Assembly: GCF_019693215.1 (NCBI RefSeq) | Contig: NZ_CP081183.1 | Location: 2,483,226 to 2,547,225 of the forward strand | Reading direction: 5' to 3' | DNA: 64,000 nucleotides | Source: Salinarchaeum sp. IM2453 | Lineage (GTDB): Archaea > Halobacteriota > Halobacteria > Halobacteriales > Salinarchaeaceae | Part shown: piece by piece, positions 38,690 through 62,591 of the stretch | Layout of the letters: every line of letters starts with the position of its first letter | Numbering within the stretch: position 1 is the stretch's first letter | Position numbers and translations under genes: made by a program | Notes under the pieces: generated by a model | What the model saw: the letters and a program-made list of their open reading frames with translations, nothing else | Told to the model about the DNA's origin: nothing | Databases searched by the model: none

Positions 38690-39262
38690 TTATTCTTCAT
38701 CTGGCGGATTACCATCTGAGCCGATTTTCATCTGCTTTGAGAAGTAGGTGTGTGCAACAGAAGAGACAGCGAACGCAATGACGATGAAGAGCATGACGCC
38801 CACTTCAGGAATCACCGCAATTGGCCATGCACCAATCCAGTGAGCAGTCACCAGTGCTGCCGAGACAGCTGTGAGTCCGAGATAGTACTCGCTCCATGGT
38901 ATCTCTCGGCCACGAACAACATCCAAGTAGATCTCGACATCTTCCATGGCTGGTGTTGGCTCGATGGTGCCTCGATCCTTGTTAAAATCGACAACGCCCG
39001 CATCGTCCATCTTTGGCAGATGAGACTGCTGTAAGGATGTATAGACACGCTTTCGTTGATCATATGAGATGTCTTCTACGGTTGTGTCGTTCTCAATAGC
39101 AGCAATCTCTTCGGCAAGGTCACCAATTTCAATTTGATCAGTTTCCGTCTGTCGAAGCGTGTGGACAGCGTGGCGGCGGCGTTGGTTGGAAAGAACATCA
39201 AAGATGTCCTCATCTGTAAGTTCTGGACTTGTACCCCCTGGTTGTACTTCCCCTGCCGACAT
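38690..39262 (-). CDS. DUF7344-like winged-helix regulator with membrane helices
   Basis: The N-terminal 110 residues contain a winged-helix of the haloarchaeal DUF7344 type: DIFDVLSNQRRRHAVHTLRQ, then KRVYTSLQQSHLPKMDDAGV and a wing. Two membrane helices follow (about 133-175). I take ATG 39262 (SAGEVQPGG) over 39271. It may be a membrane-tethered regulator of the surface genes upstream of 39634. No ligand is evident. Confidence 0.65.
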   Translation of the reverse strand: MSAGEVQPGGTSPELTDEDIFDVLSNQRRRHAVHTLRQTETDQIEIGDLAEEIAAIENDTTVEDISYDQRKRVYTSLQQSHLPKMDDAGVVDFNKDRGTIEPTPAMEDVEIYLDVVRGREIPWSEYYLGLTAVSAALVTAHWIGAWPIAVIPEVGVMLFIVIAFAVSSVAHTYFSKQMKIGSDGNPPDEE

Positions 39263-39271
39263 TACTATCAA

Positions 39272-39825: not shown

Positions 39826-40778
39826 CTGATGAATATTATACTATATTTGTACGGTCAAGGCCGGCAGTATTTTCAATCCATTATTTCTATATACCTGAAC
39901 ATGTTCTATTGTCATGTAACACTCCTGATGGAAGGGGGGAATTGAAATGGGTTGGGGTCGCAAGATTGGCTTCGGCATTCAGTTGTTTGTCCTATTTTTA
40001 CTGGTATTATTATTCATTGGTAGCTATGTTGGCCAACCCATCCTCGTTAGTTATGTTGAGACGGATAGTATGGCCAACCCCCAGACAAGTGAGTTTGAGC
40101 CATATGAGATGGATGTCGGTGATGGATTCGTTGCTGTCCCGTCAGAATTAACCGGTGAGCCTGAACCGGGTGACGTTGTGGTATTCGAAGCTGAAGAGAT
40201 TCAAGGTGGGGGACTGACGACACACTTGATCGTTGATGAGACCGATGCAGGCTATGTAACCCGGGGGATTAGCAACCCGTTTACTGATCAAGACGGGGGA
40301 GAACCCCACGTCCGTGAGCCGCAAATTAAAGCCGAAGCATTGCAGGTTGGTGGATCTGTGACAACGATTCCGCATCTCGGCACAGCAGTGATGGGCATCC
40401 AGAGTGGCATTGACTCATTCCAGCAGTGGCTTGCAGTGACGTTTGATACGCGGATGTTCTATGAGACACAGGGCCTCGCAATGGTTATTTTTGCCCTGTC
40501 GATTATGCTATACATTGCTGACCTAATTTTGTCAAGCAGGTCCGGACCTGATAAAGACCGAGATCGCCAAAAGTCTCGTGAAAGTGGTATCCAGTATACG
40601 TGGATTATTCTCGCATGTGCAGCGATTATCATGATTGCTGCCACAGCTGCAATGATTGTTCCGGGCGGAACTGATGAAATGGAGATCCTGAGTGCCGAGT
40701 TTGATTCAGATGATCCAGAGATCATCCAACAGGGCGAGACAGGTGACGTTCCCCGGTTTGCAACCAATGATGGGTATA

Positions 40779-41848
40779 TACTCACCGACAGAGAAGCTAA
40801 TAGTTTCGAGTCCAAAAGATGTGCATGACCAAACACGGCAACAAGATCCCGGGGGTGACTGTCGAACAAGTACGCGAGCAACTTGCTGAAGAGACTGACC
40901 CGAAAGCAATCAAACGATTAACTGTCGCACGAGAGTACCTTGACGGTCTTTCTCCTGCAGAAATTGAAACAAAGTACGGCTGGCACGAACGGACTGTCTA
41001 CGGCTGGTTGAACCGCTTCGAAGAGCGCGGCTTCGAGGCCGCGCTCTACGATGCCAATCGGCCCGGACAAGATCCAGAATTAGCTGAAGACCAGTTCGAA
41101 GAGTTTGCTAAAACACTCCACCAACCGCCTGAAAAAGCAGGATACGATGAACCAGCATGGACTTCGAAACTGGCCCGTCAGTACCTCATCGAAGAGTACG
41201 ACGTAGCGTACTCACTCCGTCATGTACAACGACTCATGAAGAAGGCCGAGGTTTCTTGGAAGAAACCACGGCCGGAGCCGTCTTCTGCTGATGAGGAAGA
41301 ACTCGAACAGTACGACGAAGACCTCAAAAAAAGTCGGGAGACGTGACGAAGATACAACGGTCATCACGATTGATCAGTTTCGGAAAGCAGTTGGCGCAGA
41401 TCTCACGTACGCGTGGTTTCCAGTTGGCGAGAGGCCGACCGTGGACGTGTCGGCCTCTCAAGATGGACTCAATTTTCTGGGAGCACTCACAGAGAACGGC
41501 GAGACCATGTTTTTGGAGTGTACTGGCTCGTTCACCAAGGAAGTCACCGTGCGGTTTTTCGAAGCGCTCCAGGCCAAGTTTGGTGAGAAACTCTTGATTG
41601 TGTTGGACAAAGGATCGTACTTCACAGCGAACAAAGTCAAGGAATTCGCGGAAGAAACGAAGATAGAACTTCTCTATCTTCCAACTGGAATGGCGAAGCT
41701 CAACCCAACAGAGGAGTGCTGGCGACAACTGAGATCAGCACTCGGCAACAGATACTTCGGAACGGTTGATGAGCTTCGTACTGGAATTCGATCAGCACTG
41801 GACACAATCAATCCGCCGGGAATCTATCAATATCTCTGTCGGTGAGTA
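40779..41848 (+). mobile_element. IS630-type insertion sequence
   Basis: Perfect 16-base terminal inverted repeats, tactcaccgacagaga (40779-40794) and tctctgtcggtgagta (41833-41848), are flanked by TA on each side (40777-40778 and 41849-41850), the target duplication of the IS630/Tc1 group. Length is 1070 bases. The perfect ends point to a recent insertion. Confidence 0.88.
40825..41845 (+). CDS. IS630-family transposase in two overlapping frames
   Basis: The first frame (40825-41346) has the helix-turn-helix and linker: SPAEIETKYGWHERTVYGWL and YSLRHVQRLMKKAEVSWKK. The second (to 41845) has the DDE catalytic domain: Asp in TVITIDQF, Asp in LIVLDKGSYF and Glu in LNPTEECW. They overlap at a run of seven A near 41326-41333; the catalytic frame is reached by a +1 shift. 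This could be programmed slippage at the A run or a real frameshift that inactivated the gene. All three DDE residues are kept. Confidence 0.75.
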
Positions 41849-42267
41849 TATTCCTGCAGTTTCGTATCTCGAAGCTGAGACAGATGGTATGAACGTCTCG
41901 ACTGATCGGATGACACTGGGACCACAGTCATTCGAGGAGTATAATGTGTCAATTACCGCTCCAGAAGAGACTGGACATAGCCGATATTATCTAACTGAAC
42001 ACCGGTATTTACACGTTCTACCGTTGCCGCTGATTGAGGCATTGCATGATCTGCATCCGTGGTTACCGATTATTGCAATTAATCTGTTCCTTGGTGGTGG
42101 CATCTATGCGCTTGGTCGGTTGATTTTGCCTTCTGGCCGAGCGCGGTTCCGTACCCGTTCAAAAACCCGAGCACCTGAATAACAATGATTCAGACACACT
42201 CTATACCTTGTTTCCGGCTGCCGGTTGTATCGAACAATAATCAGACACAGACAATTGTTGTAAGACC

Positions 42268-43491
42268 ATGAGTGAAGAGGCACCCCCGATGTGGAAGCTT
42301 CGGATGAAGTCGGTTATTGATCAGTGGTTTTTGCCAATTGTTGTTATTTGTTTATTGTTGGTCGCTGCTGGTGGTTTTCTGGTGTATACGGGCGTCGCTG
42401 ATCCGGGTGAAAGTGAAGAGCAGGAAGTTGTTGCCAGTGCGCAGTATGATTCCTCATTCGATTATTCGGTAGTCGTGGATGAGGACGTAGAAATTGAAGG
42501 TGAGACAGTATTCAGAGCTGGCGAGCGACAACCGTCAGGGCAGAGTTTTTATCTCAGAGATGTTGGAACAACCGTTGAGGGATCACTTGATATTAACACC
42601 GATGCAAACGAATTCGAAAACTTCTCGCTTGCTCAGGATCCGGAGGTTGTAGTTTCGCTTGAAGGAACCAGCGATGGCCAGCAGATATGGGATGTCAAGT
42701 CTGAAATAGAGGACCACACGACAGAAGTTGGAGATGATGAAGCTTCAATAGAATTCGAATTTGATGTTACAGACATTGAAGACCGGATTAGCGATGCTGA
42801 GGGTGCAGTCGGTGGTGCTGTCGATGTAGAAGCCGAAGTGCTGGTATCGACAACAGTTGCTGGATCGCTTGATGGAGAAGAGCGGTTCGTTGAAGAGACA
42901 GGATCAATTGATGTTGATATTGGTACGACAACGTTTGAGCTTGACGCAGATCATGAAGTAAGCCCTGAACCGGGTGTGACAGCCAATCCGGGTCAAATAC
43001 AGATTGTGGAGCTAACGACAACGACGGAGTCACCGTCATACATTCAGGGAATGCTCGGGGTATTACTCATTGTTGGTGGTCTTGGCGGAATTGGTATTGC
43101 TGGGATTTCATTCCGGACAATGGATCTGCCACCATCCAAGGAAGAACAGTCTTGGCTCGAGTATCAGAGTGATCGGGATGAGTTCGATGAGTGGATCACA
43201 CAGATTGAGCTATCCGAAACTGATAGGGAACACCCAACTGCGGAGGCTGAGACACTTGCTGATCTTGTTGATTTTGCGATTGATACGAACAACAGTGTCA
43301 TGTATGATCCAGCAGATGAGACGTATTCGGTTGTTCATGATGAAACACGGTACGTGTTCACGCCACCAGAGCCGCCAGAGGATCCTGCATTGTTTGGTCA
43401 GTTTGCTGTTTCAGCTCCGGGTTCGGAAAATGGAGATTCTGAAAGTGAAGAAGAGGTGGAATCAAAATCTTCGGAAGACCCGGGGTCATAG
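42268..43491 (+). CDS. DUF5305 membrane-anchored protein
   Basis: The 407-residue protein has an N-terminal membrane helix (about 17-38), a large acidic beta-rich outer domain, a second helix (about 255-275), and a cytosolic tail that ends in a low-complexity acidic stretch. This matches DUF5305 proteins, which in haloarchaea sit beside S26 signal peptidases and exported DUF1102-type proteins. It follows the split signal-peptidase gene on the same strand. A role in assembly or processing of surface proteins is inferred from linkage only. Confidence 0.7.
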   Translation: MSEEAPPMWKLRMKSVIDQWFLPIVVICLLLVAAGGFLVYTGVADPGESEEQEVVASAQYDSSFDYSVVVDEDVEIEGETVFRAGERQPSGQSFYLRDVGTTVEGSLDINTDANEFENFSLAQDPEVVVSLEGTSDGQQIWDVKSEIEDHTTEVGDDEASIEFEFDVTDIEDRISDAEGAVGGAVDVEAEVLVSTTVAGSLDGEERFVEETGSIDVDIGTTTFELDADHEVSPEPGVTANPGQIQIVELTTTTESPSYIQGMLGVLLIVGGLGGIGIAGISFRTMDLPPSKEEQSWLEYQSDRDEFDEWITQIELSETDREHPTAEAETLADLVDFAIDTNNSVMYDPADETYSVVHDETRYVFTPPEPPEDPALFGQFAVSAPGSENGDSESEEEVESKSSEDPGS

Positions 43492-43550
43492 TGGGATTTG
43501 GTTTCCACATTAGTTGCTTATCTGGGAATAAATGGTCGATTCCTGTGAAG

Positions 43551-45117
43551 GTAGTTGGATAGCGGAAATGAGAATCGGCCGGTAGAGATGTCTCTCACGG
43601 TGATTCTACTTCTCTACCACCAAGCACCGACTGCAACTGCGATGGCGGATCAAGCCCACGTCTCTGCCACGTCGCTAACATCGTCGTGATTGTCTCGTGA
43701 ATTCGGACGCCGTCAGCTGATCGGAGGCTTCGGAATATCTTCCGCAGGACAACCTGTTCGCGCAGAGCGCGCTCTGCGCGATTATTCGTTGAATCCACCT
43801 CTGGCTCTGTCACAAACGTCAGCCAGTGGCCGAGCCCGTTTCTGATTTTCTCGATCAGATCTGTAACCTCTTCGTTGGCGTATTCCTGCCGAGTAAGCCC
43901 CTCTAAGTGCAACATAGCCTCCGCCCGCTTCTCTTGGCGGGCGGAGGCAGATGGATCTCTCTCGGTAAACGTGGTCAGATCGTCGTGAAGCTCATGCAAC
44001 TCTTCAGACAGCTGCTGTGCCTCATCGTACCGGTCAGCAACGAACTCAACCTCTCGCAACAGATGGGCCCAACATCGCTGTAACTTCGGATGATACGCTG
44101 GATACGCCGACCAGCCGTCACAACTGAGTGTCGAGTCCTCGGCGAATTCCTCGCCGAGGACGGCCTCTAACACCTGACTGCCTCGGCTCTGCTCCACCGT
44201 GTACAGCACCTCATCCTCGGTTACGAACGTCCAGACCCAATACTGCTCGCCATCCACGGAAAATCCTGTCTCGTCAACGTAAACCACTTCGCTCTCGGCC
44301 ACACTCTCTTTGACTTCCTTGTATGCGGGTCGCAGCCGGTCTGCGACCCGCTCGGTCAGATTGTAGATCGTCCGGTGGGAGATTGGTTCGTCGAGCTTCC
44401 AGTCGAAGAGTTCAGCTTGTTTGCGATTTGGGAGCCGTTCGTGGAACCGGCCAAGAGCGGTTTGGGCCATGATATTTGGCCCAAAACGCCCGGTCTGTGG
44501 GCAATCCGGATGTTCAGCGACTACTTCGTTTCCGCAGGAGCACTCGTGTTTCCCAAGCTTGTACTCAACGACGGTTGTTGGGATAGGGAGCGGCGTGTCA
44601 ATGACAATTTGAGACGTGTAGCTGTCTGGATCGGTGAGAACGTGCTCACAATCGGGACAAAAGCCGTTGTCAACGATGCGTGTTTCTTCTGGCTCTGGCG
44701 GTGTTCTGGTTGTTCCCTCGTGGCCTTCGTCACGTCCGGGCGAAGAGTCGCTGGCGGCATCATCGCCGCCAGCTGACTCTTCTTCATCGGCTGTCTCGTT
44801 ATCACCGGAGCCATTGCGGCCACCACCTCTTCCAGCACCACCCTTCTTGCTGGATGGCGTGTGGGCATTTTCGTATTGCTTGAGCTTTGCTTCAAGTTCG
44901 TCGATACGACTGCTCATTTCAGCAATTTGGTGACGAAGGTGCTGATTTTCTGCGCGAAGTCTAATGACTTCCCGACGGAGGGCTGTCTTGCTATCGGTTC
45001 GGATCGCCGAATCTATCGAGTTCGGCGATCCGTCTGTCCCGAGAGACACTCTTGGCTCGGCAGATGTTCGCCAGCAACGAATCAGCTACGAATTCGACTG
45101 GGCTGCTATCCAACTAC
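43551..45117 (-). mobile_element. IS66-family insertion sequence with 8-bp target duplication
   Basis: The ends gtagttggatagc (43551-43563) and gctatccaactac (45105-45117) are inverted repeats. They are flanked by ctgtgaag at 43543-43550 and again at 45118-45125, an exact 8-base target duplication as expected for IS66. Length is 1567 bases. The insertion is intergenic, so it breaks no visible gene. Confidence 0.9.
43595..45049 (-). CDS. IS66-family transposase
   Basis: The 484-residue protein has an N-terminal coiled-coil (LRREVIRLRAENQHLRHQ), a zinc-finger (CPDC near residue 136 and ECSCG), and a catalytic domain with the DDE residues: Asp in VVYVDETGF, Asp in TLSCDGWSAY, and Glu in DSTNNRAERALR. 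No TnpA or TnpB partner is present, as in haloarchaeal ISH10-like elements. The frame is intact and probably active. Confidence 0.9.
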   Translation of the reverse strand: MSLGTDGSPNSIDSAIRTDSKTALRREVIRLRAENQHLRHQIAEMSSRIDELEAKLKQYENAHTPSSKKGGAGRGGGRNGSGDNETADEEESAGGDDAASDSSPGRDEGHEGTTRTPPEPEETRIVDNGFCPDCEHVLTDPDSYTSQIVIDTPLPIPTTVVEYKLGKHECSCGNEVVAEHPDCPQTGRFGPNIMAQTALGRFHERLPNRKQAELFDWKLDEPISHRTIYNLTERVADRLRPAYKEVKESVAESEVVYVDETGFSVDGEQYWVWTFVTEDEVLYTVEQSRGSQVLEAVLGEEFAEDSTLSCDGWSAYPAYHPKLQRCWAHLLREVEFVADRYDEAQQLSEELHELHDDLTTFTERDPSASARQEKRAEAMLHLEGLTRQEYANEEVTDLIEKIRNGLGHWLTFVTEPEVDSTNNRAERALREQVVLRKIFRSLRSADGVRIHETITTMLATWQRRGLDPPSQLQSVLGGREVESP

Positions 45118-45299
45118 CTGTGAAGTATTTCGGAAACAAGTCTTAAGACACCCAGCTCAATTTTTCTGTAGAATTTTGCTATTAGGGTGGGCGATCTTCT
45201 CAATAGTCTCTCTCTGTCTGACTGTCCGAAAAGAATGACAGTGGAGTCTTTATTGCTGAGTTCTGCAGCGATCACTGGCAAGAATTCGAGGTTGTCACC

Positions 45300-46561
45300 C
45301 CCGCCGTGTGAATGGTCATAATCATACGCGAGGGTTCTTACTCGGTTCTTGTAGTTCGGGGCCTTCCGTCAGCCAAGAGTTGCCGGCCTGCTGGAGAACC
45401 GATGGTCATTCCAGAGTTTTGTGGCTGTCGCGAGGTGTCCAAATCAATCTACGTCAATGTTGCCGAGTCCAGTGATGTCACCCTGATCCACATCAGGGAT
45501 ATCGAGGAAGAATATTGTCACACCAGTGCCGAAAGCATGCACAAACGCGAAGGCGTCTTCAGTGGTGGTCCTTTCATTGACCACAGGTATCCGGAGTGAG
45601 GACATTGGTCAGAAAGCTATGTCGAAGGCACCGATAAGGATGCTATCAAGTATAAGAACTATGGGGACAGCGCCTTATTGTTCGGGTTTGAGTTTGTATC
45701 TGCTGCCGTCTTCGACGATAATTGGTAGGTTGACATGTTCGTCGACGAAAACTGCCCTGAGTGGCTAGCCCAGCAGGTTTAGAGGCAATGGCAATTCCCA
45801 CGAACTCCCGCTGGCATCCCACCTCGCTGTACAAGCCCGATCAGATGTCCGTCGCCGTCGGCTACCAATGCCCCTTTGTGGGCAATGTCGCCACCACGCC
45901 CATCCGGACGTTTTTGGATTCGCATAACGCCGGTAATTTCGGGCAGTTGTTGATCGGTGCTGATAACGAGTACGGCCTCGATGACGAGTCGGAACTGGCC
46001 GACCGGACCGACAGCCATATGGACTCGAATGAAGTCAGGCCGGGAGCGACGTTGATCTGTCCGGCAGAGATTAAGAGAGTTAAACTGTACATCAGTGGTC
46101 TACACGCAAACCAGGGTGATGGTGAGCTACCTCTACATACGACCGATGTCAGTGGCAAAACCGAGCTAACTGTCGAGGTCGTTGACGCTCTCGAACTTGA
46201 TGGACCAATCTTATTGCCAAACGGGCCCGATCTCCACGACATTGATCAGCCCTATACCTACGAGGAGTCCATCGCCGCAGAAGGACTTGTAAATGAATAC
46301 GATGTTGATACGCTCCATGATATGGTACCTATGTAGTTTATCGGCTCTGTGGCAACAATCAACGATGCCACTGGGAATGCCTTTGATCGGGCGGGATCAC
46401 TGCTTGGGATGACCGAAGGGGAGATCCGCGCCCGATCGACGTTTACTGGCGGTGTTGAGATTGCCCGCCAGCCCGGTGTGGTGCAGTTGTCAATGCTGGT
46501 GCCTGAAGCTGAGATTGGTCATGAGGAGCTGTTTGGCTTTGTAACAAAACATTATAAATGA
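45300..46561 (+). pseudogene. Decayed acetamidase/formamidase-like gene
   Basis: Pieces of one gene lie in several frames. Near 45440 the frame reads SKSIYVNVAESSDVTLIHIR, like the N-terminal part of acetamidase. From 45830 it reads GNVATTPIRTF, then HMDSNEVRPGATLICP and GLHANQGDGELPLHTTDV, matching the family core GGNMD - G-x-L-x-P - GD-x-HAxQGDGE. After an in-frame TAG at 46334, the same frame continues as NDATGNAFDRAGSLLGMTEG to the stop at 46561. Frameshifts and the stop make it non-functional. The family releases ammonia from short amides. Confidence 0.55.
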
Positions 46562-46666
46562 ATATACTATAGGTAATGAGTCCCTACGCGGTACGTTTTG
46601 CAAATTAATGGAGGATATTTCTGCACAATCAGGAAAAATATAAAAATTATATTGAAGGAAATTTCG

Positions 46667-47254
46667 CTAATCGTTCTCAACTATGTTAACATCGTCTGAA
46701 GGTTCTTCCGCTGTTGTGATAATCTTGGCGTCGATGTCATCAGTTTCGGATGTTTCTGTATCTAATATAAACTTCACATCTATTCCAGAAGTGTCGATCT
46801 TAATACCAATCGGCACCTCTCCTTCTCCAATTTCTATCTTCCCAACAGCTTCCTCCCCGTCCAACGGCTCATTACGGTTGTCTCCAAGAATAAAGTCAAT
46901 ACCGTCTATGTCGACATTATCGAAGTCTCCCTCAAGGTAGACTGTCTGAGTGCCTTGGTTCTCAACGAAAAAAACGTCCTCAAGAACGTATACGGAGTTT
47001 GATCCCGGTCCACGGGAGTCAGCTGGATCTCCTATGACATCGTTTATATCGAACTGGATTTTCCCATCGCTAATCGACGAATAAGCAGGCCCTTCGTCCT
47101 CATTGGGTACGAGACGCAAGAGCGCATCTCTGTCACCAGCAACTTCAACTGTGAGTTGACGCTCCGCCTCAACACTCGTGAATGCACCTGTGCCTGCGGC
47201 CACGCCACCAACAGCGGCGATACCGAGAGTTCCAAGTAGTCGTCGTCGCTTCAT
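46667..47254 (-). CDS. DUF1102-like exported protein A
   Basis: The 195-residue protein starts with a Tat-like signal (MKRRRLLGTLGIAAVGGVAA) and the family motif GAFTSVEAERQLTVEVAGDR. The mature part is an acidic beta-sandwich that contains NQGTQTVYLEGDFDNVD, a typical strand pattern of the family. It is the third gene of a run (47851-48525, 47257-47823, 46667-47254), starting 2 bases after the stop of the second. It likely forms part of a secreted or surface structure. Confidence 0.7.
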   Translation of the reverse strand: MKRRRLLGTLGIAAVGGVAAGTGAFTSVEAERQLTVEVAGDRDALLRLVPNEDEGPAYSSISDGKIQFDINDVIGDPADSRGPGSNSVYVLEDVFFVENQGTQTVYLEGDFDNVDIDGIDFILGDNRNEPLDGEEAVGKIEIGEGEVPIGIKIDTSGIDVKFILDTETSETDDIDAKIITTAEEPSDDVNIVEND

Positions 47255-47256
47255 AA

Positions 47257-47823
47257 TTAACTGGCCACCTCCTGATCTGCGTTAAGCGTGATAGTGTCGA
47301 TAATTTCGTCGTCTGGTCCAACTCCGGAAGTATCAAACTCAATGTCGACATCCACTGATTCTCCTACGGTGAGATCAACAGCATTCTCTGACCCGTCGTT
47401 TAGTTCATTACCGTCTTGATCAGTGAATGTGACCACATCTGGCGAGCTGCCGCTTACTTCAAACCAGAGTCCTACTTCATCATCTCCTTCATTAGTAACC
47501 CGGAACACCTGGCTGATTCGGGTAGTTGCTTCTGAGTTGAGGGCGCCAAATGTGAGTATCAATCGCCCCGTATCGTTGTCAATCTGTGCATAAGGTTCGT
47601 CTTGTGCTCCTGGCACCCGAAGCTGGTCGTTGTCTGAGGGATCGTCTGGGACTTCCCCATTGTCATCAAGTGGCACCGGCGATAAGTATGCATCTGTGTC
47701 GTCGACGACTTCAACTGAAACTTCCCGATCTGCTTCTACGCTAGTGAATGCCCCAGACCCAATCGTTACTACCGCCCCTGCAGTGCTTGCGCCGAGCCCG
47801 AGAATGAAGTTGCGCCGGTTCAT
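47257..47823 (-). CDS. DUF1102-like exported protein B
   Basis: The 188-residue protein has a Tat-like signal (MNRRNFILGLGASTAGAVVT), the motif GAFTSVEADREVSVEVVDDT, and acidic strands around FRVTNEGDDEVGLWFEVSGS. It lies 27 bases after protein C and 2 bases before A. The pattern is the same as for its neighbours, so the three are recent or co-evolved paralogues. Confidence 0.7.
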   Translation of the reverse strand: MNRRNFILGLGASTAGAVVTIGSGAFTSVEADREVSVEVVDDTDAYLSPVPLDDNGEVPDDPSDNDQLRVPGAQDEPYAQIDNDTGRLILTFGALNSEATTRISQVFRVTNEGDDEVGLWFEVSGSSPDVVTFTDQDGNELNDGSENAVDLTVGESVDVDIEFDTSGVGPDDEIIDTITLNADQEVAS

Positions 47824-47850
47824 ATCTTTACTCTCTTATTACCCGGAAGT

Positions 47851-48525
47851 TCAATCGCGCCAATCGACGTTTGTAAGATCATCAACGCTGAAATCGGGAT
47901 CATCATCGGGACTGTCATACTGGTCGACATCATCATATTCTCCAAGATCTCTAAAGTAGACTTCATCTGGAGTGGCCGCTTGGATGGTAATTGATTCATC
48001 GACATCGCTTTCCCCATCCCCAAAGAATCCAACGTCGGTCAGCTTCTCTCCGGGCTTGAGGTACAGCAAGTCATCTCGCGGACCACCAAGTGGTGGGTTC
48101 CCTGACTGGTCACCGACACCGAGACCGGTATCTGGTCTATAAGTCTCGGAGTTATCTGCGAAAAAGCCCCAGTCGTCAGGCTGATCTTCAATCCACACAA
48201 GAACCGCTTGTGTACCCTGATTTGTGATGTTGAAGAGACTCCGAATAATTGTTGTGGCGTCTTCGTTAACACCGCTTGGGTCCTGATCAAGGTTACCATT
48301 GTTATCAGACACATCAATCCCGACCACATCGTCTTCGACAGTAACGTAGTCAGCATTTGGTGAATCGTCTGTCTCACTAAACGCCAGCAGAGCATCTGAA
48401 TCATCAGCCACGTCTACAGTAATATCTCGGTCTGCTTCCACACTTGTGAACGCACCAGTACTTACAGCGGCTGCACTTCCAGCGGACAATGCGCCCAGTC
48501 CAATTAGGAATTTGCGTCGTTCCAT
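47851..48525 (-). CDS. DUF1102-like exported protein C
   Basis: The 224-residue protein begins with MERRKFLIGLGALSAGSAAA (twin arginines followed by a hydrophobic core), then GAFTSVEADRDITVDVADDS. The mature part is acidic and beta-rich with NITNQGTQAVLVWIEDQPDD. It is the first gene of the three, and a TATA-like tatatatg (minus strand, near 48610) lies about 85 bases upstream, so a leadered transcript is likely. The inverted repeat caccctc / gagggtg near 48551 and 48590 could fold in that leader. Confidence 0.7.
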   Translation of the reverse strand: MERRKFLIGLGALSAGSAAAVSTGAFTSVEADRDITVDVADDSDALLAFSETDDSPNADYVTVEDDVVGIDVSDNNGNLDQDPSGVNEDATTIIRSLFNITNQGTQAVLVWIEDQPDDWGFFADNSETYRPDTGLGVGDQSGNPPLGGPRDDLLYLKPGEKLTDVGFFGDGESDVDESITIQAATPDEVYFRDLGEYDDVDQYDSPDDDPDFSVDDLTNVDWRD

Positions 48526-49212
48526 TGTTGATCACTTTTGTTTGGTAACACCCTCATCCGACTGTTCTTCCCTGACCGTTCGCCCCTGCGAGGGTGCTTA
48601 TCTGCACATATATACCCCCACTTATATTGTAATAAGCCGCCAGAAAGCACCGAAGGTAATTGGTGAATAGTAGAGAGTTGTCGAATCAGATACCTTCCAA
48701 GACAACAACAGTTGCTTGTGTCTGTTTGAATTCATTCATGATTTACAATCATTCCGGAAAGAATGGGCTGATATCCGTATCAATGTGCGCTTTCGGCTGT
48801 TCGCGAGACAAAAATAACTGTATACATTTTATAGAACAAGTATATCTTCCAAGAATACCCCAATAATAGACCACACCAGTTTGATCTCCGATCCGGGAGT
48901 AGAGTGATACTATTGCCGTACAGTCATACCATCAAAGCTCTCTTTCGACAATACTGGGAAAGTATCGCTGTATGTCTCGACAATAACAGACCAAGCAGTA
49001 TGCTAAAGCACTCCAGCTGATCTCTTGCTGTACATAGAAGAACAATGTACACAGACGGATCACAAGCGAAGCCGGATAATAATGGGTTCGTATGAAGCGA
49101 TATATAGAGAAGCTATAATCTGCATCAAACGGGAACTGCGAACTAATCTGCGAATTGTACTGTATAGAAATCGAGGAAAGGAGTTCACAATCCGGGTAAT
49201 CCCCCGGTTCCA
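48526..49212. other. Intergenic region
   Basis: 687 AT-rich bases between exported proteins C and D. The end near 48526-48620 holds the promoter and leader of the three-gene run. Between 48660 and 49200 I find no credible gene; open frames there have non-haloarchaeal composition. Confidence 0.45.
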
Positions 49213-49596
49213 CTACCCAATCTCTGTACTGACTTCAATTGATACCCCCTTCCCCTCTGCATGTATGATAACTTCATTTGCGTCAGTCGGCAGATCATAC
49301 AGTGCAGTCTCTTGTGTTCCCGGCCCCACGACCCATTCAGTGTCATATTGAGACTCGGGTGGATCACCAGCCTCGACCTGGGTAATAGTTATTTCATTTG
49401 CGAATCGATTGACGATGGTTACGTTCACATCCCCAGCTTCTTGTTCGGCTGTAACACCTAAATAGGCATCTTCATCATCAACGACAGACACATCCACCGG
49501 TCGGTCAGCTTCCATAGCTGAAAACCCGCCAGCACCAAGGACCAACATTCCAACGGCAAGCACCAACAACGCAAAGCTGGCCTGGCGGAGTGACAT
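49213..49596 (-). CDS. DUF1102-like exported protein D, short form
   Basis: The 127-residue protein has a Sec-like rather than Tat-like signal (one Arg, LVLAVGMLVLGAGGF), then the same motif as its neighbours, FSAMEADRPVDVSVVDDEDA, and a short beta domain. It lacks the extra strands of A-C. It may be a cap or minor subunit of the same structure; this is inferred. Confidence 0.6.
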   Translation of the reverse strand: MSLRQASFALLVLAVGMLVLGAGGFSAMEADRPVDVSVVDDEDAYLGVTAEQEAGDVNVTIVNRFANEITITQVEAGDPPESQYDTEWVVGPGTQETALYDLPTDANEVIIHAEGKGVSIEVSTEIG

Positions 49597-58287: not shown

Positions 58288-59208
58288 ATGGACGACAGTA
58301 CAAGAAAAACAATCGCAACATTAGGAGGACTCTCGGCTATCGCTGGGGCAGCTGCGGGCACAGGCGCATTCTCTCGGACAGAAGCAACCCGTGGTGTTAA
58401 CGTTCAGGTTGCAGGCGACGCTGATGCGTATTTAGGATTAGAACCAGCTCCGGACAGCCCTAACTCAAGTTACGCTTCCATCGATGACGATGGGCACCTT
58501 CAAATCAAAATGTCGGAAGGAAATGATGACACAATCGGAGACGGGGTTAATCCGAACGCAATTACGAATTTTGAGTCGGTATTTCAGATCACTAACCAAG
58601 GCACTCAGAGGATTAACGTCTGGATTGAGCATGACTCCGAGTATGTTGATTTTGAGATCAACGGACAGGTGATTGAATCTCCTGAGGAGTCGGTTTCAGT
58701 TGATGTCGGGGAGTCAGAGATAGTGGATATCGTGGTAGACACTCGGGAAGAGCCGGTGCCATCCGACGGCGACATGCTGCTCGAGGAGATAGTCATCTAC
58801 GCGGATACCGATGCTGGAGCTGAGCCACCCGCGGTGGATGCAACACGGATCGTTAGCGATGATGAAGTTTCACAGGGCGACTCAACAACGGTGACGATCA
58901 CCGTTGATCTGGATACGGTTTCTGATGTGGATGTATTCGAACGGTTTGACCCTGACCTCGGAACAGCCTCGTTCGAGTCCGCCAGCGTTGAAGGATCGAT
59001 TGTTTCACCATCGTTCGTTGATCTGGACACGGGAGGAGGAGTCGTGCTGTTCGACGGAATCGGTACTGGCGAGTTAATAGTTGAGTATACGCTGCGGGTG
59101 GCATCGGACGCCGATACGGGAGAATATCAATTTGATCCGAACTCCATCGGCATCAATACGAGCGAACAACCAGTTGAAGGTGTGGATACAATTGAGGTAG
59201 TTACATGA
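58288..59208 (+). CDS. DUF1102-type exported protein with cohesin-like domain
   Basis: The N-terminus (KTIATLGGLSAIAGAAAGTG, then GAFSRTEATRGVNVQVAGDA) is the signal and motif shared with proteins A-D; here the signal has RK rather than twin Arg. A DUF1102-like beta domain runs to about 170, with QITNQGTQRINVWIEHD. From about 180 to 300 a second domain (DDEVSQGDSTTVTITVDLDT, VASDADTGEYQF) has the beta pattern of cohesin-like domains. It overlaps the next gene by 4 bases. Confidence 0.65.
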   Translation: MDDSTRKTIATLGGLSAIAGAAAGTGAFSRTEATRGVNVQVAGDADAYLGLEPAPDSPNSSYASIDDDGHLQIKMSEGNDDTIGDGVNPNAITNFESVFQITNQGTQRINVWIEHDSEYVDFEINGQVIESPEESVSVDVGESEIVDIVVDTREEPVPSDGDMLLEEIVIYADTDAGAEPPAVDATRIVSDDEVSQGDSTTVTITVDLDTVSDVDVFERFDPDLGTASFESASVEGSIVSPSFVDLDTGGGVVLFDGIGTGELIVEYTLRVASDADTGEYQFDPNSIGINTSEQPVEGVDTIEVVT

Positions 59209-62200
59209 GTAGGAAGGACTCCGACAAGCCAGTACACCAAAGATTGGTAAGTTTGTCTAGGAGAAAAGCCATTCAATTATCAGGAACGCTACCAATCGTC
59301 AAACTACCGTCAGTAGCGAGTGCCGACAAAGATGGTGATCTCGAACGCAAAGGCGAGAAGCGCAGCGGGAGTGATGTTGCCCCTTTGGACCTCTCATCAA
59401 ATGCCGCTAATGTAATTTCAACGGAAAAATTTGAAGAAAAAATTGAGGAGACAGCATTCAGAGGAGTCAACGAGCAATTAAAAATATTCTCGGAAGAACT
59501 TCAGGGATTCCCACATGAGGGAGATGAGTTTGTGGTAATAAGTAGCGGGGATGCAGGCGAAGCGTCGAATCATCCAGAATTCTTTGCAAGTACGTGGTGG
59601 GAGAATGATCGCCATATATCTGACTATTCGCCAGATGGATACGATGCTTTCTGTGTGGCGGAACTTGACGTCACTTTCCGTGTCCCAGAGGGCGCGGAGG
59701 GAATCGCGTTTGACTATAAATTTGGAACCGAGGAGAACCCAACGTTTCTTGGAAGTATATATCAAGATTTCTTCGAAGCGCTTCTGTACGAACCAGACGA
59801 TGTTACAAATATTGCACAGATTGACGGGAACCCGGTCACAGTCGATAGCGCTGCCGGAGTATCGAATGCGCCGAACGGTAGCTCTGTTGATCCTGAACCG
59901 CCGTTTCCAGAGCCGTCAGATGTCGCATACAACGCTGTTACCGAATTACAAACGGTAACACATGACATCTCGAACCACCAAGGTGAGACACTCACGCTCC
60001 GGTTTCGGATTGCCGACGCGAGTGATGGTTTGTACGACAGCGCCGTGTTTCTTGATAATCTCCGATTCACAGATGAAGTTGAGAGGGATTTGTTACCGCT
60101 TGAGCAGGAGCTTGAATCGTTCGAGTCAGCGTTCAAAGGTCTTCTTAATGGACATATGGAAGCTCAGGCTCACTATACAGCTTTATTGTACGAAGAGTTC
60201 AGATCTGACTATGCCGATCTGGTTACTGATTATTGGGGATACAAAGCTGGTGAAATTCCCGGGAATGAGCTTGATGAGGAGCCTCGTGATATCGCCGATG
60301 CAAGTCTCAACAGCTACAAAGATGAAAGTGATTACGAAATTACCGATGGACAAGCCATGGATTTCTATCGGTTCTATGATGAACTCTTTGATAATCTTGA
60401 AGATAAGGATGAAATAGAGGTCATCAAAGAGATCACATACCAACATTACGTTGGAGAATATCCTGGGCAAGAATATCCGTTCAGTTTTGATGAGGGAGAA
60501 AGATTTATTGATATTATGGAGGACGACTGGGAAATTGTGGGTGCAGCGGTCGATCAAATAATGTCTAATCACGATCCGACACAAAGTGAAATTCAATCCT
60601 TAGCCACAATTATTCAAGATCTAACTAATCGTCTCTCCGCAAGAAAACAGGAGCTTATTGAGGCAAAAGAACACGAGGCAGAGGCACTAATCTCAGCTGG
60701 CGATGAGGATGAACTTGAAGTCAGCGGGCAAGTCTTTGAAGATTCCACGGACCTCGCGGGTGATGAGGTTGGAGTTCAGATTGGGCCTGCGAAGTTCGCG
60801 CTTATAATTTTAGGTCTCGGGATTCTGGGAAAGGGAGCTGGATACTTAACAACTCGGTGTAGTGGAACCTTCGTACTGTCTCGTCATGACGCAGTTGAAC
60901 ATTCTACAGTATCAGTTTCACGTCCAGATAGGGCTTTCCTCAGTCAAGTTAATTCGGGCATAAATATGATAACCCACTTAAGCTCCTTTGCTGATGTGAT
61001 GGAAGAAGACGGACTTGAGACTGAATTCGCTGGATCTGTGTTTGTAGGGGGGTTCAAGAAGGGAAGCGTAACTGCTGGTAAGAGTCTTGTCATCGAAACT
61101 TTAGAACTATCTCTTCAATGGGCACTCGCTCAGGATGCTGATGCAGAAATCAGATTTGATAAACTTCCTGACGTGACGGAGAAGGCCGAGCTGGGTCTAT
61201 GGGATCGATTTATACATTGGGGGAAGAGTTTTTGGGACTGGTTCTGGCCATGGTACAGCTATAGCCGACCCGAGATAGGGGAAGCAGAAGGGAAAATTAC
61301 GATCGAGAACACCGGCAATACGATATTCACCCCCGTAATTGGTTCGGATTACAGACTTTTTGATGGGGAGAAAATAAGTGGTGCTGGATTTGCTGTGGAT
61401 TTTGATGGAGATAATAGTCCAATGTATACTGGCGATACTCGGTCATTTGATGTAACATATCAAGCACCCTTAGACGAAGGAATACGCGCAGGAGAAATCG
61501 ACATTGAAATCGGTATGAAACCTGAAGCTGATGCATGGGACCCACCAACTGATATTGGAGACTTCTTGCCGATTAGCCTTTGTGAGACTGACTATATTGA
61601 AACAGGAGATAGAGTGGTTGAATCATTTGGCGTTGGTAACAACACCTCGGTAGAGACTATTAATGAGAACGATCTTGCTGAAGGGGAAACCGACGAGTTT
61701 TCGTATATCCCAGAAGAGGACTCAGAATCGGTATTCTTAAGCCTCCACTATACAGATCACTATGCAGATTTCCTTCTAATCGATGAGGACGGCAATCGAA
61801 CGGGACGTGACGACGGCGAAACCGTGACAGAAATCCCCGATTCCATTTACTCCGGACGTGACACGGGTGAGCGCAATCGCGAGTGGATCTTACTCGAAGA
61901 CGTACACAATGAGGAATACACTGTTCGTGTGCATGCCCCCGTAGTTGGAACAGTACCCGGAAACAACGAAGGAGACGAGGGATCTGGAGAAGAAATCAAA
62001 GCTTCATCCCTTCAGATCGCCAGTAATTTGTCTAGCCTCTCAGTACCATACAAGATTACGTCGACGGCTGTTCCCACGCTGCCGCCATTCCTTGATATCT
62101 CCCCATCAAACATCACGTTCGACGAACCGGTGGCCCGCGGGGATTCACCTGAATTTGCTATTGTCCTCAGTGAAACGAACGAAGACACAGCTATCAATCA

Positions 62201-62591
62201 AGTAGAACTGGTTGCAGGCGATCTTGAACATGTTGATAATGAGCAGTCAATCTCGGGGGATCACATCAAGTTCGAGTCAACATCGGTGTCGCTTGATGCT
62301 GGGGAAAGAAAGACCGTCGAGACAACAATTAACATACCAAGGGACGCGTCTAGTGGCATGTATACCGGAAATATCGAGGTGACTGGGAGCGACGAAACGG
62401 CAGGAGGAGATTCCATGATAGAGTTAACTATTAACGTTCAATTAGCGGCTGAAGATTATGCCGATCCCGATGGAGTTATTCGGTTCAATGGGCTCCGTGA
62501 CGCAATCGCTGACTGGCGTAATGGTGTGATCACGAAAGCATTGTTGGAGGATGTCATTGATGCGTGGCGAACACGGCGGGAGATAGACTAA
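59205..62591 (+). CDS. Large adhesin-like exported protein with dockerin-like C-terminus
   Basis: The 1128-residue protein has a Tat-like start (SRRKAIQLSGTLPIVKLPSV). A choice-of-anchor-type beta domain spans about 80-295 (AFDYKFGTEENPTFLGSIYQ, DNLRF). A helical region (about 300-520) with coiled-coil character follows, then a hydrophobic segment near 525-550 (FALIILGLGILGKGAGYL). Two beta-sandwich regions occupy about 690-1080. The last 45 residues (YADPDGVIRFNGLRDAIADW, LLEDVIDAWRTRR) are a dockerin-like calcium segment. It is likely a surface adhesin bound to the cohesin-like partner encoded upstream. Confidence 0.65.
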   Translation: MSRKDSDKPVHQRLVSLSRRKAIQLSGTLPIVKLPSVASADKDGDLERKGEKRSGSDVAPLDLSSNAANVISTEKFEEKIEETAFRGVNEQLKIFSEELQGFPHEGDEFVVISSGDAGEASNHPEFFASTWWENDRHISDYSPDGYDAFCVAELDVTFRVPEGAEGIAFDYKFGTEENPTFLGSIYQDFFEALLYEPDDVTNIAQIDGNPVTVDSAAGVSNAPNGSSVDPEPPFPEPSDVAYNAVTELQTVTHDISNHQGETLTLRFRIADASDGLYDSAVFLDNLRFTDEVERDLLPLEQELESFESAFKGLLNGHMEAQAHYTALLYEEFRSDYADLVTDYWGYKAGEIPGNELDEEPRDIADASLNSYKDESDYEITDGQAMDFYRFYDELFDNLEDKDEIEVIKEITYQHYVGEYPGQEYPFSFDEGERFIDIMEDDWEIVGAAVDQIMSNHDPTQSEIQSLATIIQDLTNRLSARKQELIEAKEHEAEALISAGDEDELEVSGQVFEDSTDLAGDEVGVQIGPAKFALIILGLGILGKGAGYLTTRCSGTFVLSRHDAVEHSTVSVSRPDRAFLSQVNSGINMITHLSSFADVMEEDGLETEFAGSVFVGGFKKGSVTAGKSLVIETLELSLQWALAQDADAEIRFDKLPDVTEKAELGLWDRFIHWGKSFWDWFWPWYSYSRPEIGEAEGKITIENTGNTIFTPVIGSDYRLFDGEKISGAGFAVDFDGDNSPMYTGDTRSFDVTYQAPLDEGIRAGEIDIEIGMKPEADAWDPPTDIGDFLPISLCETDYIETGDRVVESFGVGNNTSVETINENDLAEGETDEFSYIPEEDSESVFLSLHYTDHYADFLLIDEDGNRTGRDDGETVTEIPDSIYSGRDTGERNREWILLEDVHNEEYTVRVHAPVVGTVPGNNEGDEGSGEEIKASSLQIASNLSSLSVPYKITSTAVPTLPPFLDISPSNITFDEPVARGDSPEFAIVLSETNEDTAINQVELVAGDLEHVDNEQSISGDHIKFESTSVSLDAGERKTVETTINIPRDASSGMYTGNIEVTGSDETAGGDSMIELTINVQLAAEDYADPDGVIRFNGLRDAIADWRNGVITKALLEDVIDAWRTRREID

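Follow-up and report, generated by a model that had tools for sequence, protein, structure and literature searches.

In bacteria, the SipW-TasA fibre system places a dedicated S26 signal peptidase beside the fibre genes, and the N-terminal arm of the subunit begins right after the cut site. Among archaea, bundling pili and threads are built of donor-strand β pilins, and the subunit of the Sulfolobus thread carries a general secretory (Sec) signal (PMC9715654). The haloarchaeal Tat (twin-arginine translocation) fimbriae, or tafi, were first described in 2025 by Galeva et al. (iScience 28:111793), as cited in PMC12687288. Here we describe a locus of fibre type in a 64-kb stretch of DNA (contig positions 2483226-2547225; hereafter ‘the window’) from the 2.66-Mb, single-contig genome of the haloarchaeon Salinarchaeum sp. 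IM2453. A first-pass annotation of the window had proposed a candidate surface-fibre system with a dedicated peptidase, a proposal that is supported by the pilus fold match and the gene linkage reported below. We conclude, with a probability of roughly 0.85, that the region is a haloarchaeal Tat-fimbria locus, the first of a neighbouring pair, in which an S26 peptidase, DUF5305 and DUF7344 work as we propose. The kind of fibre is itself already known, and the window adds one more tafi member.

The window encodes five exported paralogues, which we call A to E; a common motif after the signal had been reported for all of them, and one family profile recovers the full set (E=3.6e-22 to 1.1e-43). 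Each has G-A/G-F-T/S-x-x-E-A-x-R after the signal, then V-x-V and D-x-D-A. The NCBIfam model for TafE (NF052522) matches A (195 aa; 46667-47254, - strand; E=8.6e-12, under the equivalog cut-off), B (188 aa; 47257-47823, - strand; E=1.5e-22), C (224 aa; 47851-48525, - strand; E=1.2e-22) and E (306 aa; 58288-59208, + strand; E=6.5e-17), the last of which combines an N-terminal tafi domain with a second β-rich region. D (127 aa; 49213-49596, - strand; motif GAGGFSAMEADR) is an exported protein matched instead by TafC (NF052521, E=3.3e-11).

A profile of the paralogue alignment, searched against PDB sequences, yielded one strong match: 9p0a_C, ‘Pilin’ (E=3.6e-34), which B alone also finds by phmmer (E=3.1e-10). 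By its PDB title, 9p0a is the Tafi pilus of Natrinema sp. J7-2; no mention of 9P0A was found in the literature searched. Structure prediction, suggested in the first-pass annotation and run here on B, leads to solved donor-strand pili: AlphaFold models B as a β sandwich with a low-confidence N-terminal arm (predicted local distance difference test score, pLDDT, 79.9), and Foldseek places this model closest to 9p0a among PDB entries (E=2.9e-4, probability 1.00, template modelling (TM) score 0.48). The Pyrobaculum bundling pilus (7ueg) and the Sulfolobus thread (7pnb) rank second and third, at TM-scores of 0.36 and 0.36; these first three stand alone at E<=0.001, and type 1 pilus subunits of FimF type come next. 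Both sequence and fold thus agree with a pilus subunit of known structure, and haloarchaea from many families show linkage with S26 and DUF5305; in view of this it is very unlikely that the paralogues have no fibre role and are common Tat-secreted proteins of the DUF1102 type, clustered by duplication, even though DUF1102 is a family without assigned function and some paralogues carry extra domains. The DUF1102 label given to the paralogues in the first pass holds for E (24.6 bits against a Pfam gathering cut-off of 22.2, E=3.2e-5), but A (13.6) and C (15.7) score weakly and B and D are not listed; with a single paralogue above the cut-off, we rejected DUF1102 as the defining family.

In an alignment led by B (38 rows), R3, R4, A25, R33 and D42 are invariant, and cleavage of B is predicted at GSGA25|F26. 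Among 219 subunits with an RR-type signal, Ala occupies position -1 in 198, Phe position +1 in 198 and Arg position +8 in 196; since the selection pattern already demanded that -1 be small and +1 hydrophobic, information comes solely from the Arg and from the preference within that pattern. For the 9p0a chain, the sequence counts 215 residues and the structure 188, the latter being what would remain if the chain started at the motif Phe; the agreement is one of residue number, whichever residues the structure lacks. The signals themselves vary: A, B and C have RR, E has a single R-K pair and D has no RR. Because it is without the twin arginine, D looks Sec-type and TafC-like. D also finds a relative by phmmer at L062:2337-2978 (E=1.5e-19). 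The idea that D is a truncated pseudogene finds no support, given that D has the whole of the conserved N-terminal domain and that tails vary among its homologues.

The two archaeal fibres that follow 9p0a in the fold search, the Pyrobaculum calidifontis bundling pilus and the Sulfolobus thread, resemble B in fold and differ in showing 10-11% identity, no sequence-level match and an origin in another archaeal phylum. With bacterial SipW-TasA-TapA the likeness is one of logic alone, in that a dedicated S26 is linked to subunit genes here too. The first-pass annotation had drawn this parallel; the logic stands, but the family is that of the Tat-fimbriae, no TasA model or structure is among the matches listed, and A, B and C bear twin-arginine rather than plain Sec signals. 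The window system also differs from the bacterial one in using Tat where the latter uses Sec, in an S26 with a C-terminal β domain and extra membrane helices, and in the presence of DUF5305 and DUF7344; no TapA was found. Scans of the window proteins with NCBIfam and Pfam gave no TasA/camelysin model, and no TasA chain appeared in the PDB sequence search or among the 50 fold matches listed for B. TasA membership was rejected, there being no TasA among the listed matches of the sequence and fold searches. That haloarchaea acquired a true TasA/SipW system from bacteria is highly improbable. A dedicated S26 and a β-rich fibre subunit whose signal is directly followed by an arm bearing Phe would fit such an origin, as would the S26 of one tafi locus (L157), which matches the SipW model NF046067 at E=2.3e-9 (37.1 bits, cut-off 190); however, TIGR02228 passes at that same locus, the best models are archaeal signal peptidase I and Taf with no TasA entry among the listed matches, and the signals are of Tat type.

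The second line of evidence is linkage across haloarchaea, where genes in the loci of relatives were located with profiles run on the six-frame translations. Of 146 genomes from the order, 90 carry DUF5305; an S26 of this type is carried by 89 and TafE-like genes by 86; S26 and DUF5305 are carried together by 88 and all three by 81 (Fisher p 1e-36 to 5e-26, from related genomes whose counts are not independent). S26 lies <=10 kb from DUF5305 at 111/121 places, 78 of them with S26 directly upstream on the same strand, and the S26-DUF5305-Taf set recurs in 40 loci fetched from these genomes. Named loci >15 kb fetched by S26 (n=65) contain DUF5305 in 62 cases, Taf genes in 62 and both in 60. The co-occurrence anticipated in the first pass is thus seen, with the genes linked across haloarchaea.

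Two reference-type loci connect S26 and DUF5305 with tafi proper. In L076, TafE (224.6 bits, cut-off 155) and TafA (250.6 bits, cut-off 190) both exceed the NCBIfam thresholds, and S26 and DUF5305 flank the cluster, the order being DUF5305 (forward), a 404-aa gene (reverse), TafE (reverse), TafA (forward), a DUF7344-type gene (forward), a 379-aa gene that encodes a Taf domain and occupies the TafC position (forward) and S26 (reverse). In L157, from Natrinema pallidum, genes for a pilin (90% identity to 9p0a across 167 residues), a 398-aa β-domain protein, S26 and DUF5305 follow one another in this order on one strand. Membrane proteins of ~400 aa with a β domain adjoin the tafi pilins of both loci (L076 9200-10414, L157 8558-9754); no gene like these was seen in the window cluster. 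The Taf letters B and D are absent among the matched models, which suggests that neighbouring genes, S26 perhaps included, were also given names by the discoverers. The window locus resembles tafi in its subunit family, twin-arginine signal, GxGAF motif and fold, and reference-type loci have the same S26 and DUF5305; it differs in that its proteins score under the equivalog cut-offs, its S26 is broken by an insertion sequence (IS), its subunit genes are inverted, and 13 paralogues and two loci occur within one genome. Of these 13 TafE-like places (a breakdown counted by eye and profile), 5 are in the window, 6 within ~30 kb rightward and 2 elsewhere.

The second tafi locus is situated just right of the window, at window coordinates 64065-76643 (L008 7290-19868). 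Its genes include an intact S26, six Tat paralogues and a pair of DUF7344 genes; it has no DUF5305.

The S26 gene of the window is interrupted, as the first-pass annotation had recognised. Its 5′ part (39947-40775, + strand), which encodes the whole catalytic domain and the first membrane segments, matches the family profile at positions 2-258 of 359 (E=2.6e-106), and its 3′ part (41852-42182, + strand), which encodes the remaining extracytoplasmic β domain and the last membrane segment, matches at positions 235-359 of 359 (E=1.8e-35). Between them is an IS630-type element (40776-41851, + strand; HTH_32/33 and DDE_3) of 1076 bp, with 19-bp perfect terminal inverted repeats and a TA target; when the flanks are rejoined without it, they form a single frame with one terminal stop. 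The element is the sole copy at 100% in the genome, the next best being 69%, and we rejected a recent IS burst on the grounds that no second identical copy exists. Its transposase frames (40819-41346 and 41291-41845) overlap at a run of A (41320-41350), which suggests, on the letters of this overlap, that the transposase may be made by programmed frameshifting.

The build of this S26 type comprises a catalytic domain, a long C-terminal extension with a β domain, and extra membrane helices. Its catalytic domain is of the same Ser-His-Asp type as that of archaeal and endoplasmic reticulum (ER)-type signal peptidase I (TIGR02228; SEC11A 7p2p), from which the tafi S26 is set apart by the long extension and the genomic link to pilins; the window protein matches TIGR02228 at E=1.1e-5, under the cut-off, and no other NCBIfam model. 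The first-pass annotation had assigned it Ser-His-Asp, and Ser, His and one Asp are indeed kept, but comparison with 110 relatives shows changes in three motifs of the active site: 8-9 residues are inserted right after the catalytic Ser-Met, THR is changed to THL, and GD[A/N]N is changed to GISN, with loss of the first Asp. Across 111 S26 sequences, SMxP is found in 107, THR in 110 and GDxNxxxD in 109, and the window S26, which has a long branch (0.96) in the S26 tree, is the sole member that fails all three. The insertion falls 3′ of the complete catalytic domain, severing most of the C-terminal β domain and the last helix. Bearing in mind that Ser, His and one Asp are wholly 5′ of the element, one could argue that the truncated peptidase is still active, the insertion costing it the C-terminal β domain and last membrane helix alone; we regard this as improbable given the insert after Ser-Met and the loss of the THR Arg and the first Asp of GD[A/N]N, in motifs that are kept in 107 to 110 of the 111 sequences.

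A second S26, intact and with all three motifs, is encoded at contig positions 2557912-2559111 (L014), ~33 kb beyond the window copy, and no third S26 of tafi type was detected in the genome at E<=0.01. An origin of the two genes by local duplication is not supported, as the S26 tree places them apart from each other, both on long branches. Because the window S26 is split by the IS and its active site has diverged, processing of the window pilins in trans by the intact S26 is most likely; the earlier suggestion that another enzyme might process the subunits is sharpened to a particular paralogue.

The DUF5305 gene (42268-43491, + strand; PF17231 E=3e-39), identified in the first pass as encoding a membrane protein, is the sole copy in the genome. 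The predicted order of the protein is a membrane helix, an immunoglobulin (Ig)-like β ectodomain, a membrane helix and a cytoplasmic α/β tail (AlphaFold pLDDT 83.1). DUF5305 has no match among PDB sequences, its fold search returned generic Ig-like matches at low TM-scores, none of them informative, and the literature searched does not mention it. Assignment of a function from the fold was rejected, the matches being generic. Our guess is that DUF5305 may serve as base, anchor or assembly platform, and we treat it as a candidate assembly or anchor factor. Upstream of S26 is a gene for a DUF7344 winged-helix protein with C-terminal hydrophobic segments (38690-39271, - strand; PF24035 E=3.5e-31), a candidate regulator. 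The genome holds three DUF7344 genes, all at its two tafi loci, and a DUF7344 relative is present at 86/99 tafi loci >15 kb as against 0/4 control loci of nearest relatives. DUF7344 is thus a usual member of tafi loci, and probably a regulator. The coordinates that the first-pass annotation gave for its named elements are right; its gene set omitted this DUF7344 gene, which falls outside the interval it described, as well as the second locus and eight more paralogues.

Elsewhere in the window, E is followed by a gene for an exported 1128-aa protein that combines a signal of RR type with a choice-of-anchor L domain (59205-62591, + strand; NF038133 E=3.4e-21), the start of which overlaps the 3′ end of E by 4 bp; this protein is a possible tip adhesin or cargo. 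At L064 9932-11539, a tafi-type N-terminal domain is fused to a right-handed β helix (PF13229), a fusion which suggests that large tip or cargo proteins may use the same N-terminal arm as the pilins. An IS66-family transposase gene (43595-45049, - strand; PF03050 E=6.3e-43) separates the S26-DUF5305 pair from the subunit genes, and beside it is a fragment of an acetamidase/formamidase gene (45761-46336; PF03069 E=2.3e-12). Subunit genes A-D are inverted relative to S26-DUF5305. The formamidase fragment beside the IS66 transposase indicates that the stretch separating DUF5305 from the subunit genes has been rearranged.

These features raise the question of whether the window locus is a decaying remnant, A-D no longer entering fibres and the neighbouring locus alone being active. 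Besides the interrupted S26 with its three changed motifs and very long branch, and the formamidase fragment and IS66 inside the locus, the window is without a ~500-aa partner gene seen in many relatives. Yet the frames of all five paralogues and of DUF5305 are intact and their motifs conserved, C, B and A are tightly packed with C as first gene (gaps of just 27 and 2 bp), the genome's sole DUF5305 is here, and the IS lies after the catalytic domain. We consider decay to this extent rather unlikely.

Several observations weigh against our main reading. The TM-score of B to 9p0a is only 0.48 and the root-mean-square deviation is large, possibly through a flexible or swapped arm. The TafA, TafC and TafE matches of A-E all fall under the equivalog cut-offs, which makes these proteins relatives and not equivalogs. 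An ordinary archaeal signal peptidase may cut the subunits. With no informative structural match, the role of DUF5305 is a guess. In two same-family genomes (G010 and G026), S26 lies apart from DUF5305 and neither has a Taf gene near, so neither may be strictly tafi-only; in the S26 tree, G026 and Salinarchaeum laminariae R26 (labelled Natronoarchaeaceae) have identical proteins. The support is computational throughout.

We propose the following mechanism for the Tat-fimbria locus. The computation itself establishes the family identity, the fold, the linkage, the insertion and the intact paralogue; that S26 does the cutting, where exactly it cuts, that these subunits exchange donor strands, what DUF5305 does and that rescue occurs in trans are inferred. 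A, B, C and E are β-sandwich pilin paralogues and D is a TafC-like component; S26 would be the pilin signal peptidase dedicated to the locus, and DUF5305 a membrane assembly or anchor factor. The pilins would fold in the cytosol and be exported by Tat, their uncut signal helix serving as a tether. S26 would then cut behind the conserved Ala of GxGA|F[T/S]xVxAxR, and the freed N-terminal arm, starting with Phe, would become the donor strand in the groove of the next subunit, such that the fibre could grow without a separate energy source. The window would supply the genome's sole DUF5305 and the second locus its S26, serving both loci, if both are active.

What is new here is the recognition of S26, DUF5305 and DUF7344 as conserved genes of tafi loci, with some uncertainty as to the novelty of the S26/DUF5305 link, and the partial decay of the window copy. 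A bolder idea, which we put forward tentatively and think rather less probable than not, is that DUF5305 and the pilin-dedicated S26 with its C-terminal β domain constitute an unrecognised archaeal assembly machine: cleavage of Tat-exported, folded pilins would trigger donor-strand polymerisation on a DUF5305 platform, under the control of a membrane-bound DUF7344 switch, and in this genome a single peptidase and a single DUF5305 would serve two loci in trans. Whatever the fate of that idea, S26, DUF5305 and DUF7344 emerge as three candidates for a part in assembly or control, found next to tafi subunits at most of the haloarchaeal loci examined, and for tafi pilins the cleavage site can be sharply predicted. 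Proteins exported by Tat are folded, and donor-strand pilins need an open or self-complemented state; release of the arm triggered by cleavage would reconcile the two, and the naturally broken peptidase of this haloarchaeon offers a ready test of rescue in trans.

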